The notes below the pieces were generated by a model. That model ran no database searches. It was given only the letters and a program-made list of their open reading frames with translations, and was not told the DNA's origin. A program made the translations under genes and the position numbers. Positions 3,045-35,077 of a stretch of DNA of 35,152 bases are shown here, one piece after another; the stretch's first letter is position 1, and every line of letters starts with the position of its first letter. The stretch spans positions 1-35,152 of the forward strand of contig NZ_JABXYX010000081.1 of the NCBI RefSeq assembly GCF_017982655.1, read 5' to 3'. The DNA is from Brasilonema sp. CT11 (GTDB taxonomy: Bacteria > Cyanobacteriota > Cyanobacteriia > Cyanobacteriales > Nostocaceae).

Positions 3045-3222
3045 CAGGACTTACGCAGCGATGATTGGTCATTGCGAGTGGAACGCAGTGTAACGTAGAC
3101 GCGTTTGCGCAGCGCCCCCTTAGGGGCTAGCGGCTTCCCGCAGGGTAGCAATCCTGGTCTTGACGAGATTGCTTCGCTTCGCTCGCTGCGGACGAAAATA
3201 CGTTACCTTTGCGTAAGTCCTG
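3045..3222. mobile_element. MITE, 178 bp, with 13-bp inverted ends and 5-bp target duplication
   Basis: The ends CAGGACTTACGCA (3045-3057) and TGCGTAAGTCCTG (3210-3222) are perfect inverted repeats, flanked on both sides by GTGAG (3040-3044 and 3223-3227), a direct target-site duplication. The interior has no ORF and is made of hairpin-rich repeat DNA, including an ATTGCGAG...GCAATCC segment of the same type as that inside the NACHT gene at 33.4 kb. It is a non-autonomous element that must be moved by a transposase encoded elsewhere. The transposase family cannot be fixed from these ends alone. Confidence 0.88.
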
Positions 3223-14442: not shown

Positions 14443-17073
14443 ATGTCCTTTGTCCCTTTGCACATTCATAGTGATTACAGTCTGCTTGATGGAGCAAGCC
14501 AACTCCCAGATTTAGCAGATCGCGCCATAGAACTGGGGATTAAAGCAATAGCCCTGACAGATCATGGTGTGATGTATGGTGCGATCGAACTGATTAAAAT
14601 CTGCCGCAATAAAAATATCAAGCCAATTATTGGCAATGAAATGTATATCATTAACGGCGATTTTACAAAACAAGAACGCCGTCCCCGCTATCATCAAGTT
14701 GTTTTAGCCAAAAATACAAAAGGATATAAAAATTTAGTTAAGATCACAACAGTTTCTCATCTTCAAGGTGTACAGGGCAAAGGGATTTTTTCCCGTCCTT
14801 GCGTAAATAAAGAATTATTAAAAGAGTACCATGAAGGCTTAATTGTAACGAGTGCTTGTTTGGGTGGAGAAGTTCCGCAAGCAATTCTCAGTGGGAAATT
14901 AGAGGCCGCACGTAAAGTTGCTCGGTGGTACAAAGAAGTCTTTGGTGAAGATTATTATTTAGAAATTCAAGACCACGGATCGCAAGAAGACCGGATTGTG
15001 AATGTAGAAATTGTCAAAATTGCGCGGGAACTTGATATTAAAATTGTTGCCACCAATGACTCACATTTTATTTCTTGTTACGATGTTGAAGCACACGATG
15101 CTTTGCTATGCATTCAAACTGGCAAATTGATTGCTGAAGATAATCGAATGCGTTATAGCGGTACAGAATATCTCAAATCTGCTGAGGAAATGAAGGCGCT
15201 GTTTCGCGACCATTTGCCAGATGATGTTATTGAAGAAGCTGTAATAACTACAGTTGAAGTTGCAGAGAAAGTCGAACCTTACCAGATTTTAGGTGAACCT
15301 CGCATTCCCAATTATCCCATCCCATCTGGTCATACTGCTGATACATATGTTGAAGAAGTTGCTTGGCAAGGACTTTTACAGAAATTAAATCGTAAATCTA
15401 GAAATGAAATTGACCAAACTTATAAAGATAGGTTGGAGTATGAACTAAAAATGATTCAGAAGATGGGTTTCTCCAGCTACTTTTTAGTTGTATGGGACTA
15501 CATCAAATTCGCTAGAGACAAGAATATTCCTGTAGGTCCTGGTCGCGGTTCTGCTGCAGGGTCATTGGTTGCTTACACTATGGGAATTACTAACATTGAC
15601 CCCGTACATCATGGACTCCTCTTTGAAAGATTCCTCAATCCAGAACGGAAATCCATGCCTGATATTGATACAGATTTCTGTATTGAACAACGGGATAAAG
15701 TCATTGATTATGTTACAGAAAAATACGGTAAAGAGAGAGTCGCCCAAATCATTACCTTTAACCGCTTGACTTCTAAAGCAGTTTTAAAAGATGTTGCCAG
15801 AGTCTTAAATATTCCCTATGGAGAATCAGACAAAATGGCAAAGCTTATTCCTGTTTCCCGAGGGAAACCCACCAAACTCAAAGTGATGATTTCCGACGCA
15901 ACACCGGAACCAGAGTTTAAAGAAAAATATGATAGTGATCCAAGGGTACAGCATTGGGTTGATATGGCAATTCGTATTGAGGGAACAAACAAAACATTTG
16001 GTGTGCACGCAGCTGGTGTAGTGATTTCTGCTGAACCATTAGATGAGATTGTCCCACTACAAAAAAATAACGACGGTTCTGTGATTACCCAGTATTTCAT
16101 GGAAGATTTGGAATCACTAGGCTTGCTAAAAATGGATTTTCTGGGTTTAAAAAACTTAACTATGATTCAGAAAACCATCGATTTGATTTCGCAAAACAAA
16201 GGATTTAGAATTGATCCATACGACATCACGAGTCAAGAAAGAAAAGCTCAAAGAATTTTAGCCAAAGGCGAATATAACACCTTACCAAAAGACGTTCAAA
16301 AGACTTACGAACTATTAGAGGCAGGCGAATTAGAAGGTATTTTTCAATTAGAATCTTCTGGTATGCGGCAAATAGTACGCGATTTAAAGCCTTCCAATAT
16401 AGAAGATATTTCTTCAATTTTAGCACTTTATCGACCAGGTCCATTAGATGCAGGACTGATTCCCAAATTTATTAACCGCAAGCATGGTCGAGAAAATATT
16501 GACTATGAAACCCAAATTCTAGAACCAATCTTAGATGAGACCTATGGAATTATGGTCTATCAAGAGCAGATTATGAAAATTGCTCAAGATATGGCTGGAT
16601 ATTCTTTAGGACAGGCAGATTTGCTGCGCCGTGCAATGGGAAAAAAGAAAGTTGAGGAAATGATGAAGCAGCGAGAAAAGTTTGTGGATGGCGCTGCTAA
16701 AAATGGAGTCAAAAAACAAATTGCTGAAGAATTATTCGGGCAAATGTTGAAATTTGCTGAATATTGTCTCAGCTATGACACAGAAGTGTTAACGGTAGAA
16801 TATGGGTTTTTACCTATTGGGCAAATTGTAGAAAAAAGAATTGAATGTAGCGTGTACACAGTTGATAGTAACGGAAATATTTACACACAACCTATTGCTC
16901 AATGGCATAATCGTGGTCAACAAGAAGTTTTTGAATACTGTCTAGAGGATGGTTCTGTTATTCAGACAACAAAAGACCATAAATTTATGACGACTGATGA
17001 GCAAATGTTGCCTATTGATGAAATATTTGAACGGGGTTTGGAGTTGATGCAGGTCAAGGGTTTACCTAAATAG
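14443..17073 (+). CDS. dnaE-N: DNA polymerase III alpha subunit, N-terminal half, with split-intein N fragment
   Basis: 876 residues: 774 of N-extein plus a 102-residue N-intein. The PHP domain opens with [11 protein letters not shown] (H7, H9) and LTDHGVMYG (D40, H41). The polymerase palm includes [11 protein letters not shown] near residue 365, PDIDTDF with catalytic D407 and D409, and the third acidic residue D565 in [12 protein letters not shown]. The extein ends ...LKFAEY at 774. The protein cannot act alone. In cyanobacteria the C-terminal half is encoded by a distant dnaE-C gene beginning with the matching C-intein, and the two are joined by protein trans-splicing to give the replicative polymerase. 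The stop at 17073 is therefore genuine and not a truncation. The start [13 protein letters not shown] is typical for the family. Confidence 0.97.
16765..17070 (+). other. DnaE split intein, N-terminal fragment (Int-N)
   Basis: Codons 775-876 encode 102 residues from the nucleophilic Cys1 ([20 protein letters not shown]). The block B region TTKDHKFMT contains the TxxH-type Thr and His that assist the first N-S acyl shift, and the fragment ends [10 protein letters not shown]. Length and layout equal those of the fast-splicing Nostoc-type DnaE Int-N, with substitutions such as D5, V8 and F15 relative to the Npu form as I remember it. The matching Int-C must be on another locus. Confidence 0.96.
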
Positions 17074-27317: not shown

Positions 27318-29153
27318 TTGAAGGATAATCACTTTCTCTTAGATACAGCCAAGTCCTACTTGCTCAAAGAAATTGTACCTCAAGCGAACAAGATAGACCA
27401 TGATCCAAATACTTTATTGTATGCACTCCAAGGTCTTGGCGAATTAGACCTTTTGGCACTCAAGGTTCCACATCACTGGAGTGGAAAAGAAGTTAGTGAA
27501 CAGACATATGGCGACTTTCAGGAACTAGTAGCACGCTATTCTGGTGCTTTAGTCTTTTTGCAAACTCAACACCAGAGTGCGGCTGGTATGCTTGTTGCTA
27601 GTGCCAACTCGTCGCTACAGGAAAGATACCTCCCCCGTATGGGCAACGGTGAAATTTTACTAGGTGTTGGTTTTTCCCAGTTGCGACGCGCAGGTGATCC
27701 CCTGACTGTAGCCACACCGGTTGCTGGGGGATATCAACTTAATGGGGTTGTTCCTTGGGTGACAGGATGGGAATTTTTTGGCGAATTTATCATTGCTGCC
27801 ACATTACCAGATGGTGGCGCTGTTTATGGTATTGTCCCGTTAGTCGAAACACATCAAGAGTCAGGAGGTACACTGACACTTTCACCTCCAGCACAGCTGG
27901 CGGCGATGACATCAGCTAATACCGTAACCGCTACCCTGAAAAACTGGTTCTTACCCACAGAAAGTGTTGTTTTCATTAAACCTGCTGGTTGGATTCACGA
28001 AAACGATAAAAAGAATATTCTTGCAGCTGTTTTTATGGCGACGGGATGCGCCCTTGCTGGTTTAGATATTGTGGAGTCCGTCGTCAGCAGAAAACCTCTA
28101 CCTTTTATCCAAAAAGCTTTTGATTCTCTGCAACAGGAATTGAATAACTGTCGCAACGCTGTTCGCGAAGCGCAAAATAATTCTAGTTTGGAATTTGCTG
28201 AACGCTTACAATTGCGGGCTTGGGCGATTGATCTTGCAGGACGAATAGCTCATGCAGCGGTGACTGTTTCTAGTGGTGCTGCTATATATAGTCATCATAA
28301 TGCACAACGGGTGTACCGTGAGGCGCTGGTCTTTACTGTGATGGGTCAAACTCCTGCAATTATGGAAGCAACTTTGGGGAGATTGACACGATCAGGTTTT
28401 GAGAATGAACCGCAGAGGCGCAGAGGAAGCAGAGAGGGAAGAGAAGAGGAGAAAAAGATCGTTTATTCGCGGGTGATACATTTAAGTCATGTCATTGACT
28501 CAGATATTCCTCAATGGCAAGGTGATCCACCAGTTGAATTTGAGACTGTGGCTCAACTGCATAAGGATGGTTATTATCTGCGGCGTTTTTCTCTAGGGGA
28601 ACACAGCGCGACTCATATTAATGCTTCCAACAGTTTTCACCTTGATGGTGTAGGAATTCACGAGTATTGTGCTGAGTCGTTGGTTGTCCCTGCGGTAGTT
28701 ATTGATATTCGGGAACAGGCGCTGGTAAATCCGGATTATACTCTTTGTGTTGAGGATATTCTGAGTTGGGAGGAACGCTACGGTAAGATTCCGCCTGGTT
28801 GTGTAGTGTTACTGTATACAGGTTGGCAAGAGAAATGGTCGGATCAACAAGCTTTTTTATACCAGGACGAGCAAGGAAGTATGCATTTTCCTGGGTTTGG
28901 TAGTGATGCGACACGCTTTTTACTAGAGGAACGTCAAATTGCCGGAGTCGGAATTGATACTCATGGAGTAGATTCAGGGCAAGATACTACTTTTGGGACT
29001 AATTCCTTAGTGTTGGAGAAACCCCGTATTGTATTGGAGAATTTAACGAATTTGGATCAGTTACCGCCAACAGGGGCGACTTTGGCAATTGGTGCGCTGC
29101 GGTTACGAGGTGGTTCGGGTTCTCCGGTTGGGGTGTTGGCGTTGATTCCATAA
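27318..29153 (+). CDS. Acyl-CoA dehydrogenase-like / cyclase-family fusion protein
   Basis: 611 residues, read from TTG 27318 (no ATG or GTG is available before the domain). Residues 1 to about 360 are an acyl-CoA dehydrogenase-like flavoprotein (VGFSQLRRAGDPLTVATPVA in the FAD-contacting middle domain, then the four-helix C-terminal domain ending MEATLGRLTRS). Residues from about 380 are a complete cyclase-family (kynurenine formamidase-like) domain with YSRVIHLSHVIDSDIPQWQG, the metal-site region GEHSATHINASNSFH, and GVGIDTHGVDSGQDTTFGTN. The usual HxGTHxDxPxH motif is altered: Asn for Asp and Ser for Pro. The joint is a charged linker encoded by an interspersed repeat, so this is likely a recent read-through of two adjacent genes. 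The physiological reaction is unknown. Confidence 0.75.
   Translation: MKDNHFLLDTAKSYLLKEIVPQANKIDHDPNTLLYALQGLGELDLLALKVPHHWSGKEVSEQTYGDFQELVARYSGALVFLQTQHQSAAGMLVASANSSLQERYLPRMGNGEILLGVGFSQLRRAGDPLTVATPVAGGYQLNGVVPWVTGWEFFGEFIIAATLPDGGAVYGIVPLVETHQESGGTLTLSPPAQLAAMTSANTVTATLKNWFLPTESVVFIKPAGWIHENDKKNILAAVFMATGCALAGLDIVESVVSRKPLPFIQKAFDSLQQELNNCRNAVREAQNNSSLEFAERLQLRAWAIDLAGRIAHAAVTVSSGAAIYSHHNAQRVYREALVFTVMGQTPAIMEATLGRLTRSGFENEPQRRRGSREGREEEKKIVYSRVIHLSHVIDSDIPQWQGDPPVEFETVAQLHKDGYYLRRFSLGEHSATHINASNSFHLDGVGIHEYCAESLVVPAVVIDIREQALVNPDYTLCVEDILSWEERYGKIPPGCVVLLYTGWQEKWSDQQAFLYQDEQGSMHFPGFGSDATRFLLEERQIAGVGIDTHGVDSGQDTTFGTNSLVLEKPRIVLENLTNLDQLPPTGATLAIGALRLRGGSGSPVGVLALIP
28404..28451 (+). 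repeat. GCAGAGGCGCAGAGG-type interspersed repeat forming the fusion linker
   Basis: The segment AACCGCAGAGGCGCAGAGGA and the following AG/GA-rich tail are the common cyanobacterial intergenic repeat usually seen between genes. Here it is read as a charged linker (NEPQRRRGSREGREEEKK) joining two enzyme domains. Confidence 0.75.
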
Positions 29154-33103: not shown

Positions 33104-35077
33104 ATGAGCGCAGATTTTCAAAAATACCTGCAATCTGTGTGTAATGCCTACCAACATTGGTGGAATCTGTACACTATCACGGATGTGGAAGGGTCTAAAC
33201 CAGTACAGCGTACAAGTGTAGCGTCGCCTTTTGGTTTTGACTTGATGGTGCAAACAGTCGAGCAAAAGCAGCAGGATAAAGGCGAGACACCAGATAAAAC
33301 AGAGAAAACCGAACGCCTACCAGTGGAGGAAGGTTTACGTAAATATTCTGAAAATCATGTATTACTTGTCGGAAGACCAGGTTCCGGGAAGTCCACAGCT
33401 TTAGCGCGGCTATTGCTGGAAGAAGCAGGAAATTCTGTCATTGCGAGTGAAGCGAAGCGAAACGTTCGCGAAGCGTGTCCGAAGGACTCAGCAATCTCCT
33501 CCACAACCAAGTCTGTCATTGCGAGTGGAGCGAAGCGGAACGTTCGCGAAGCGTGTCCGAAGGACTCAGCAATCTCCTCAACAACAGCAATACCCATACT
33601 AGTAGAACTCCGCCAATACAACACCTCTGTCCTTGAGCTTATTCAAAACTTTCTCTTGCGCCACGATCCCAACTTAACCTTTGACAGCGAAACTTTAAAA
33701 ACTTGGTTGCGACAGGGGCGATTTTTGCTGCTGCTAGATGGAGTCAACGAGTTACCGAATGACGATGTACGGCGAGACTTAAAAACCTTTCGGCAGAATT
33801 ACCCGAACACGCCGATGATTTTCACCACGCGGGATTTGGGCGTGGGTGGCGATTTGGGGATTGAGAAAAAGCTGGAAATGCAGCCCCTGACAGAAGAGCA
33901 GATGCAGCAATTTGTCCGCGCCTATTTGCCAGAACAAGGTGAGGAAATGCTGTGGCGGTTGGGTGGAAGATTGCGAGAGTTCGGGCAAACGCCGTTGCTG
34001 CTATGGATGCTGTGTGAGTTATTTAGAACAACGGGCAATGTTCCACCAAATTTGGGTTTAGTGTTTCGCTGCTTTGCCCTGAGTTATGACGGCAAAATCA
34101 AAGATGATGTCCCGGTTTCTGGTGAGTCGCGCCGCTGGTGGCAGGAGTTATTGCAGCATTTGGCGTTTGCGATGATGCAGGGAGAAACGCGTACAGAGTT
34201 GCGAGTCACGATTGAGAGGCGAGAAGCGGAAGCAATTTTCACGAAGTTGCTTGAAGGTAAAGTTGATTATCCTGCGAGTCGGGCGAAAGAATGGTTAGAA
34301 GATTTGCTCAAGCATCATTTAATCCAAGTTGCCAGCAATAACCAAATAGAGTTTCGCCACCAGCTGCTTCAGGAATACTACGCGGCAGAATGTTTACTCC
34401 AGCAGCTTCCCAATATTAGTAATGAGAAGTTGAAACGGGATTATCTCAATTATTTGAAGTGGACAGAACCTTTAGCGCTGATGTTGGCGTTGGTGGAGAA
34501 AGAGGTGCAGGCGTTGCGGGTGGTGAAGTTAGCCTTGGATGTGGATTTGCAGTTAGGGGCAAGGTTGGCGGGAGAGGTGAAGCGAGAGTTTCAGGAAAAA
34601 ACAGTTGATTTAATTTTAAAGTTAGATGTTCCTGAATTACTCAAGATTGAGTTTTTGGGTATCACGCGCTCTGGGTATGGAGTCGGATTTTTAAGTGATA
34701 GATTACAAGATCAAGTTTCTCATGTGCGTAGGAGTGCCGCATCTGCATTAGGAGAAATCAAAGATACCCAGGCAGTACAAGCTTTGATTGGTGCTTTGAA
34801 TGATCAAGATTATTTTGTGCGTAGCAGAGCCGCATCTGCATTAGGAGAAATCAAAGATACCCAGGCAATACAAGCTTTGATTGGTGCTTTGAATGATCAA
34901 GTTTCTCATGTGCGTTGGAGTGCCGCATCTGTATTAGGAGAAATCAAAGATACCCAGGCAGTACAAGCTTTGATTGGTGCTTTGAATGATCAAGATTATG
35001 AACTGCGTAGGAGTGCCGCATCTGCATTATTGGACTTTGGACAAAAAAATGTGTTCGCGAATAAGGTACGCGAATAA
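33104..35077 (+). CDS. NACHT NTPase with C-terminal HEAT repeats, carrying in-frame repeat insertions
   Basis: 657 residues, a STAND-type signalling ATPase. The N-terminal ~75 residues (DFQKYLQSVCNAYQHWWNLY) precede the NACHT domain. Walker A is GRPGSGKST (residues 90-98) and Walker B is LLLLDGVNELP (D212), followed by sensor-like MIFTTRDLGVGG and a winged-helix/helical region with EFRHQLLQEYYAAE. The C-terminus is a HEAT array of four near-identical 31-residue units (LGEIKDTQAVQALIGALNDQ), probably the sensing or binding surface. Between Walker A and the next strand (IPILVELRQYN) are two 26-residue repeats that come from interspersed DNA. Related bacterial NACHT proteins act in antiphage defence, but no adjacent effector gene is seen and defence is inference. 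The array ends abruptly in QKNVFANKVRE, also repeat-like. Confidence 0.88.
   Translation: MSADFQKYLQSVCNAYQHWWNLYTITDVEGSKPVQRTSVASPFGFDLMVQTVEQKQQDKGETPDKTEKTERLPVEEGLRKYSENHVLLVGRPGSGKSTALARLLLEEAGNSVIASEAKRNVREACPKDSAISSTTKSVIASGAKRNVREACPKDSAISSTTAIPILVELRQYNTSVLELIQNFLLRHDPNLTFDSETLKTWLRQGRFLLLLDGVNELPNDDVRRDLKTFRQNYPNTPMIFTTRDLGVGGDLGIEKKLEMQPLTEEQMQQFVRAYLPEQGEEMLWRLGGRLREFGQTPLLLWMLCELFRTTGNVPPNLGLVFRCFALSYDGKIKDDVPVSGESRRWWQELLQHLAFAMMQGETRTELRVTIERREAEAIFTKLLEGKVDYPASRAKEWLEDLLKHHLIQVASNNQIEFRHQLLQEYYAAECLLQQLPNISNEKLKRDYLNYLKWTEPLALMLALVEKEVQALRVVKLALDVDLQLGARLAGEVKREFQEKTVDLILKLDVPELLKIEFLGITRSGYGVGFLSDRLQDQVSHVRRSAASALGEIKDTQAVQALIGALNDQDYFVRSRAASALGEIKDTQAIQALIGALNDQVSHVRWSAASVLGEIKDTQAVQALIGALNDQDYELRRSAASALLDFGQKNVFANKVRE
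33434..33579 (+). repeat. Two in-frame copies of an interspersed repeat inside the NACHT gene
   Basis: Each copy is 68 bp (33434-33501 and 33512-33579), starting TCTGTCATTGCGAGTG and ending GCAATCTCCTC; they are offset by 78 bp, exactly 26 codons. The translation of each is SVIASxAKRNVREACPKDSA followed by ISSTT. The same ATTGCGAG...GCAATC repeat occurs in the non-coding MITE at 3.1 kb. Both copies keep the frame and contain no stop. Confidence 0.9.
34709..35030 (+). repeat. Tandem 93-bp HEAT-coding minisatellite
   Basis: Units begin at 34709, 34802, 34895 and 34988 (the last incomplete). They are nearly identical except in the first third: units 1 and 3 share GATCAAGTTTCTCATGTGCG, whereas units 2 and 4 begin GATCAAGATTAT. 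The array therefore looks like a duplicated 186-bp pair. Confidence 0.9.

Follow-up and report, generated by a model that had tools for sequence, protein, structure and literature searches.

A loop beside the Walker A helix of a Nostocales NACHT-HEAT protein family is probably a tolerant site that short, dispersed selfish repeats have colonised repeatedly, with open and hydrophilic reading frames surviving. Bacterial genes with in-frame repeats have been described before, mostly as isolated examples. The new element here is one loop used repeatedly by many repeat types, and this recurrent use goes beyond the single case described in an earlier note on the window, the whole 35,152-nucleotide stretch of Brasilonema sp. 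CT11 DNA that was analysed.

The window gene and its repeat array

The host gene (33104..35077, forward strand) encodes a NACHT-HEAT protein of 657 aa, recognised with Pfam profiles and a profile of its relatives. The Pfam NACHT profile (PF05729) scored 40.1 bits on this protein, above the curated cut-off of 26.7, and HEAT_2 scored 109.9 bits. Walker A, GRPGSGKST (33371..33397, forward strand), is intact, as is the Walker B region, LLLLDGVNE (33725..33751, forward strand); residues G90, G93, G95 and K96 of the former and G213, N215 and E216 of the latter are invariant among 74 aligned sequences. Having passed the Pfam cut-off with both motifs intact, the protein is placed among the NACHT NTPases (STAND), and, judged from its sequence, the NTPase is most likely still working. 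A profile of family relatives matched NLRC4 (E 3.3e-16), and in that alignment the insert site is flanked by the Walker A helix and the strand LVFFIHLRS; the alignment and the variability in length together suggest that the loop would be exposed. The C-terminal HEAT repeats (34690..35029, forward strand), detected by repeat finding, TRF and Pfam, have a 93-bp period. Two orthologues, L002 and L003, have a longer HEAT array than the window gene, whose contig ends at 35152. PADLOC gave five matches in the window, to HEAT-rich and other partial profiles, and convincingly named no defence system.

Repeat finding detected two direct copies in the gene, 33431-33507 and 33509-33585, of 77 nt each, spaced by 78 and 95% identical, and TRF reported an array at 33434-33585 with a period of 78 and 95% matches. 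Together with the host-genome matches given below, these results bear out the earlier note, which had described an interspersed repeat doubled in frame by the Walker A helix; its period of 78 bp was right, but its copy length of 68 bp was slightly short. The 52 extra residues that it had counted are also there, between the Walker A helix, LARLLLEEAGN, and IPILVELRQYN. The loop core of the window gene is 81 aa long, versus the usual 37-38 aa in insert-free relatives, in agreement with the claim that this NACHT segment is normally short.

Alignment with five orthologues of the genus resolved the window unit into a 54-bp outer unit and a nested 24-bp element, the exact edges of which are ambiguous by a few bases. 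Unit 1 (78 bp, 33436..33513) and unit 2 (76 bp to the end of the loop, 33514..33589) both lie on the forward strand, as do the 24-bp core GTTCGCGAAGCGTGTCCGAAGGAC that marks the nested element in unit 1 (33464..33487) and the core that marks it in unit 2 (33542..33565). In the window this core occurs only as the two array copies, with 0 expected at up to three mismatches; an unrelated motif that was probed in the window gave no match. The same repeat type with another nested element is found on the forward strand at 3068..3150 (the end is approximate), where GTCATTGCGAG matches at 3068, and this is the copy that had been noted at 3.1 kb. Its nested element resembles that of orthologue L003. 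In the 8.8-Mb host genome (G000), a 74-bp unit gave at least 47 blastn matches at E <= 0.01, the window pair included and many of them partial.

Within the genus, the nested 24-bp element is also present in L007, the 54-bp unit lacks it in L002, L006 and units 1-4 of L005, and a different nested element, of 27 bp, is carried by L003 and by unit 5 of L005. There is one unit in L003, L006 and L007, two in L001 and L002, and five in L005. The nested lengths (24 and 27 bp) and the periods (54 and 78 bp) are all multiples of three. The DNA upstream of L002, L003 and L007 is 94-96% identical to the window over approximately 0.7 to 1.5 kb, and therefore at least these three are orthologues in place; that of L006 is 98% identical over 256 bp. 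Since the repeat is present across the genus orthologues, it is genus-wide and not new in this strain.

Outside the loop, dN/dS among six insert-bearing genus orthologues was 0.19-0.39 over 15 pairs, so that this part of the gene is under purifying selection. These values agree with the tolerance that the earlier note had proposed for an insert in a surface loop, the surface position itself being an inference. Its other proposal, a weakened NTPase or a decayed sensor, found no support, both Walker motifs being intact in the window gene. That the insertion marks a sensor becoming a pseudogene is indeed very unlikely in general. Three relatives have features expected of decay: a stop interrupts a longer C-type insert in L139 (G243), the gene L040 (G054) is broken in two within its type A insert, and the L033/L112 paralogue (G011:C33) combines a type A insert with a degenerate Walker A, GRPDSGNST. 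The window gene, however, is open and keeps its motifs, the dN/dS values above were obtained with insert-bearing genes, and the inserts are in frame in 49 of 108 loops; the pseudogene reading was rejected on the grounds of purifying selection and intact motifs. The broken L139 and L040 are also better evidence of selection for the open reading frame than the stop-free copies that had been cited for it, because the repeat unit is open in three of its six frames and openness alone is thus a weak sign of selection.

Insert types across the family

We searched 99 genomes, scoring up to 12 candidates in each, and 217 genomes of the family, 72 of which had a match at E <= 1e-30; part of the matches were fetched. 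A strict motif retrieved the loops of 99 distinct genes, and nine were added by hand to give 108. The motif missed 16 ids: nine of these were the further loops, L112 was a repeat of L033, and L036, L049, L050, L118, L119 and L157 yielded no loop. L138 starts inside its own insert, at a contig end. No recognised insert was present in 57 of the 108 loops, counting as insert-free L127, which has 17 extra and untypable aa; 49 carried an in-frame insert, including two weak members of type A, L031 (38-aa core) and L042 (44-aa core), and 2 were broken within the insert. Among the 99 genes, the core had a median length of 37 aa in untyped loops (middle half 37-38, range 31-54) and of 59 aa in typed loops (range 38-129), and it reached at least 45 aa in 45 of the 47 typed loops. 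Typed inserts occurred in 16 of the 32 genera represented by the 98 genes of the tree described below.

Eleven types were distinguished by their peptides: A, VIASEAKRN..AISS; B, SPLNPPLERG; C, PLPQPLPEAERG..PPSLAGKG; D, RAGILPA..DAHPTRQDA; E, TPNPSSLTWRR; F, NPLPVDGEGGQ; G, SRGAEEQ; H, SRSLALPGN; I, LKTTES..FQLTSAMSQG; J, TPLLAKERGGGE; and K, RDAIHRV. Nine of them (all but E and K) were searched with blastn, and each was dispersed in at least one carrier genome. The counts that follow include the query's copy and both strands of some palindromic sites; scoring was limited to 40 candidates per genome. Type A gave at least 47 matches in G000, 13 in G001, 29 in G006, 32 in G114, 12 in G239, 4 in G112 and 26 in G015; type B gave 28 in G250, 38 in G011 and at least 59 in G160; and type C gave at least 44 in G038, at least 50 in G249 and 35 in G119. 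There were at least 50 matches of type D in G149, at least 71 of type F in G090, 23 and 35 of type G in G005 and G185, respectively, and at least 67 of type J in G055. Dispersal was patchy for two types: H had 23 matches in G024 and in G113 matched nothing but itself (on both strands), and I had 24 in G235, mostly partial, and two in G028 (its own copy and one 35-nt piece). In the plasmid records, neither the type A nor the type C peptide had a match at E <= 0.01; one record held a relative of the whole NACHT-HEAT protein at E <= 1e-20.

Representatives of the nine dispersed types gave no mutual blastn match at E <= 0.01, whereas type E matches both F (85% over 33 bp) and C (over 17 bp). Types C, F and J, all C- and G-rich hairpins, could share a remote origin. 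In seven of the eleven types the representative aligns with its own reverse complement (the exceptions being A, E, G and the longer part of K), as would suit inserts that function as hairpins in the mRNA. We nevertheless consider such an RNA-level function very improbable, and rejected it: the two-unit array of the window folds no better than shuffled sequences (z 0.41) and does not show the stable RNA hairpin expected of an RPE-like repeat.

The ORF context of type A was examined in its host genome, G000. An ORF test could be applied to the 25 of 28 type A loci that had sufficient length, and an ORF of at least 150 aa spans five of these (L055 and L071 being one site) and not the other 20; the short locus L072 was examined outside this set. 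An alternative account takes the inserted peptide for an ancestral domain, an old part of a NACHT subfamily, and the type A peptide is in fact found in several genera (six, one of them through the weak L042, plus L033 and L040). The earlier note had named the same peptide in distant genera as the observation that would speak for this account; that condition did not arise, since what the other genera have at the site is other repeats or none. Moreover, the DNA is dispersed and mostly outside long ORFs, and type A requires eight changes on the tree. An ancestral domain is therefore scarcely credible, and we rejected it on account of the different inserts found at one site.

Arrival and turnover at the loop

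Ninety-eight genes were aligned with MAFFT, L139, with its stop in the loop, being left out of both alignment and tree, and length variation was counted with the ragged N-terminus excluded. The main loop accounted for 1243 extra residues, with 10 or more in 38 of the 98 genes, and the next internal site, after MMQGE, for 309, with 10 or more in 11 of 98. This second loop, MMQGE^TRTEL (34172..34201, forward strand), has no insert in the window gene; the inserts that its relatives carry there look like repeats too. At each of six other internal positions one gene had 10 or more extra residues, and one of these positions lies three columns from the main site.

On a tree of the 98 genes made with the loop excluded, in which 52 of 95 inner branches were well supported, insert type requires 29 changes and presence or absence 17; the type changes number 21 without E, K and I, and 20 without L031 and L042 as well. 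The sister genes L137 (type D) and L004 (type B) have completely different loops at a dS of 0.113, and the junctions of types B and C fall at almost one codon in separate clades. Some of the type changes may represent recombination or transfer and not fresh insertion, and the safe minimum of separate arrivals is therefore the nine dispersed types.

Type J preserves the traces of an insertion event. In G055 it has at least 40 same-strand copies with 91-100% identity, and its ends could be located at 22 of 24 loci chosen among the best matches. A perfect 3-bp flanking duplication was present in 21 of these 22 copies, in the form TNA in 20 of the 21, and the element was 102 bp long in 21 of 22 and 105 bp in the NACHT copy. 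Element and duplication together make 105 bp, or 35 codons, so that type J is in frame by nature. With its terminal inverted repeats and target site duplication, type J in G055 qualifies as a MITE. The frame was open throughout 400-450 bp at two (L198 and L201) of 20 further type J loci. In a relative, L041, the element is absent from the site, which reads CATAGTAAGTCGCC.

The short loops of L041 (from 929) and L082 (from 1836) start with TGTAGAGACGCG, as type K does in L034, and TGTAGAGACGCG was found in 14 of 217 loci, some of them overlapping. The stretch GTAGAGACGCG is common to L041, L082 and the type K insert of L034; in the type J gene, this stretch and TGTAGAGACGCG are each present with a single change. 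L041 and L082, counted here as insert-free, may thus hold remnants of an older repeat, and such a remnant was possibly in the loop before type J, which may have entered beside it. These observations would suit a hotspot, in which an earlier palindromic repeat draws later elements to the site, so that it is targeted as DNA and tolerance of the loop is secondary. The nesting of the 24- and 27-bp elements inside the 54-bp unit, the type A sequence on both sides of type I in L145 and the joining of several types at nearly one codon point the same way. On the other hand, the second loop of the protein gathers inserts too, which indicates tolerance at the protein level, and 20 of the 25 type A copies tested in G000 lie outside long ORFs. 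Targeting of the DNA is compatible with the colonisation of a tolerant loop, and we regard it as possible but doubtful.

Selection on the inserts was estimated from 16 chosen same-type pairs, not all of them independent (L141 and L144 were used twice). The inserts had a pS of 0.113 and a pN of 0.071 (ratio 0.63), versus 0.276 and 0.075 (ratio 0.27) in the flanks of the same pairs, and the insert differences were distributed over the codon positions as 36/39/54. The insert peptide thus looks weakly constrained, and the low pS of the inserts suggests recent arrival, gene conversion or homogenisation, or constraint on the DNA. The typed inserts have 235 alternative frames, 69 of them open; the 46 on the reverse strand were hydrophobic on average (+0.60) and the 23 on the forward strand hydrophilic (-1.31). 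The frames in use were hydrophilic on average in 45 of 47 inserts, the mean of all 47 being -0.8, and aromatic residues made up 2.5% of the inserts versus 8.9% of the flanks. This composition fits a filter for soluble, flexible peptide, and the same composition is expected of survivors in any neutral loop.

We propose that the repeats arrive by transposition, as the 3-bp target duplication of type J and the relative lacking the element show for that type, and that they nest in one another and vary in tandem number, both of which are seen in the genus of the window. Frame-breaking insertions, of which two broken copies were found, would mostly be lost or kill the gene, and open, mostly hydrophilic peptides would be tolerated because the loop is presumably exposed and flexible.

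Other recipients and known systems

Repeats of these types are also found outside the family. In G000, in-frame copies or pieces of type A occur in CHAT-TPR, AAA_35, RecG, TPR and HTH-PBP proteins, four of the five as pieces of 25-39 bp only; these are putative insertions. Over all genomes, the in-frame recipients were RecG, AcrB-family, HTH-PBP, AAA_35 and TPR proteins, two CHAT proteins (one of them CHAT-NACHT) and an NCH2-type NACHT protein. Five of these eight scanned recipients (the two CHAT, NACHT-NCH2, AAA_35 and TPR proteins) look like proteins of the conflict type; the TPR protein, in which Pfam shows TPR only, is one that we take to be so.

Such recipients would be expected if the loop were the hypervariable surface of an immune sensor, with repeat-driven turnover favoured because it alters oligomerisation, regulation or recognition by phage inhibitors. 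The wholly different loops of the sisters L137 and L004 also accord with this adaptive explanation, and multicellular bacteria, according to the accessible part of PMC10907252, diversify such sensors in another way, by means of retroelements. It is, however, at odds with the weak amino-acid constraint seen in the pN/pS ratio and codon positions of the inserts, with the lack of a recognised insert in about half of the loops, and with the presence of such repeats in RecG, AcrB-family and HTH-PBP proteins. We consider adaptive turnover unlikely, and it is equally improbable that the loop is a diversification device in which mobile repeats feed a fast-changing disordered segment beside the nucleotide switch of an immune sensor. 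If this were true, close strains would be expected to have different activation thresholds or to be unequally susceptible to phage inhibitors.

The names SDR, MITE and RPE are applied here by resemblance, save where the criteria were tested. The RPEs of Rickettsia are short palindromic repeats that lie in frame in unrelated genes and are thought to be compatible with protein structure (Ogata et al. 2000, 2002, cited in PMC10969869, as excerpted there). The window repeat is like them in being a short repeat in frame within protein genes, and most of the insert types are partly palindromic; the window repeat has many dispersed copies in its host genome and is in frame in several unrelated genes. 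The Rickettsia elements, as far as the accessible account goes, are the repeat families of one genus in many genes, whereas here many families from many genera share one loop, and in the NACHT-HEAT loop there is nesting as well as arrays of 1-5 units.

REPs of several phyla are also in frame in genes, according to parts of PMC10969869, PMC3733652 and PMC5896051. Among them, the intragenic GTAG/CGTC REPs are palindromic, lie within ORFs and are in some cases doubled (Di Nocera et al. 2013, PMC3733652), and the same paper, in its accessible part, argues that such inserts are possibly neutral in flexible linkers or loops. The window array resembles them as an intra-ORF repeat present twice, but the accessible part of PMC3733652 contains no cross-genus reuse of one loop, and the window units start with TGTC and have no CGTC tag.

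MITEs are described as very small mobile repeats in cyanobacteria in parts of PMC10969869 and PMC4390886. Type J, with its inverted ends and target duplication, is MITE-like in this sense, and the 24-bp nested element is likened by resemblance to the SDR families; the difference is that here the repeats are in the coding sequence of a NACHT NTPase. The NACHT sensors diversified by DGRs (PMC10907252, in its accessible part) likewise vary among putative immune sensors of multicellular bacteria, but there a retroelement mutates a lectin domain, whereas here repeats are inserted into the NTPase domain. Among the papers listed by our searches of the open-licence literature, none reports a loop used repeatedly in this manner. 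Cyanobacterial small dispersed repeats (SDR) were reportedly treated by Elhai et al. in 2008.

The loop amounts to a replicated natural experiment, with one site, nine dispersed types, alleles with and without an insert, broken alleles and arrays of 1-5 units. With it one can test how frequently selfish DNA turns into protein sequence and through which filters (frame, hydrophilicity and position), and whether variation beside an immune-type NTPase switch is neutral or useful.

Several minor observations were made in passing. Type C is in frame within the CHAT domain of a CHAT-NACHT protein, directly after NACQSGKQ (L169, 1501-1587), type D is in frame in another NACHT loop, before Walker B (L173, 1501-1563), and a repeat-derived segment forms part of the N-terminal portion of RecG in G000 (L069, 1501-1539). 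A DprA-like ORF, recognised by eye, lies beside an insert-free NACHT relative (L046, 2-1231). In the window, a 611-aa ORF (27318-29153) has two enzyme-like parts joined at approximately 28.4 kb through QRRRGSREGREEEKK, a sequence similar to insert type G and possibly a further linker of repeat origin. The end of the DnaE ORF (14443-17073) looks like what we presume to be the N-terminal half of a split intein, and tandem TPR-like coding repeats with a 126-bp period occupy positions 23-559.
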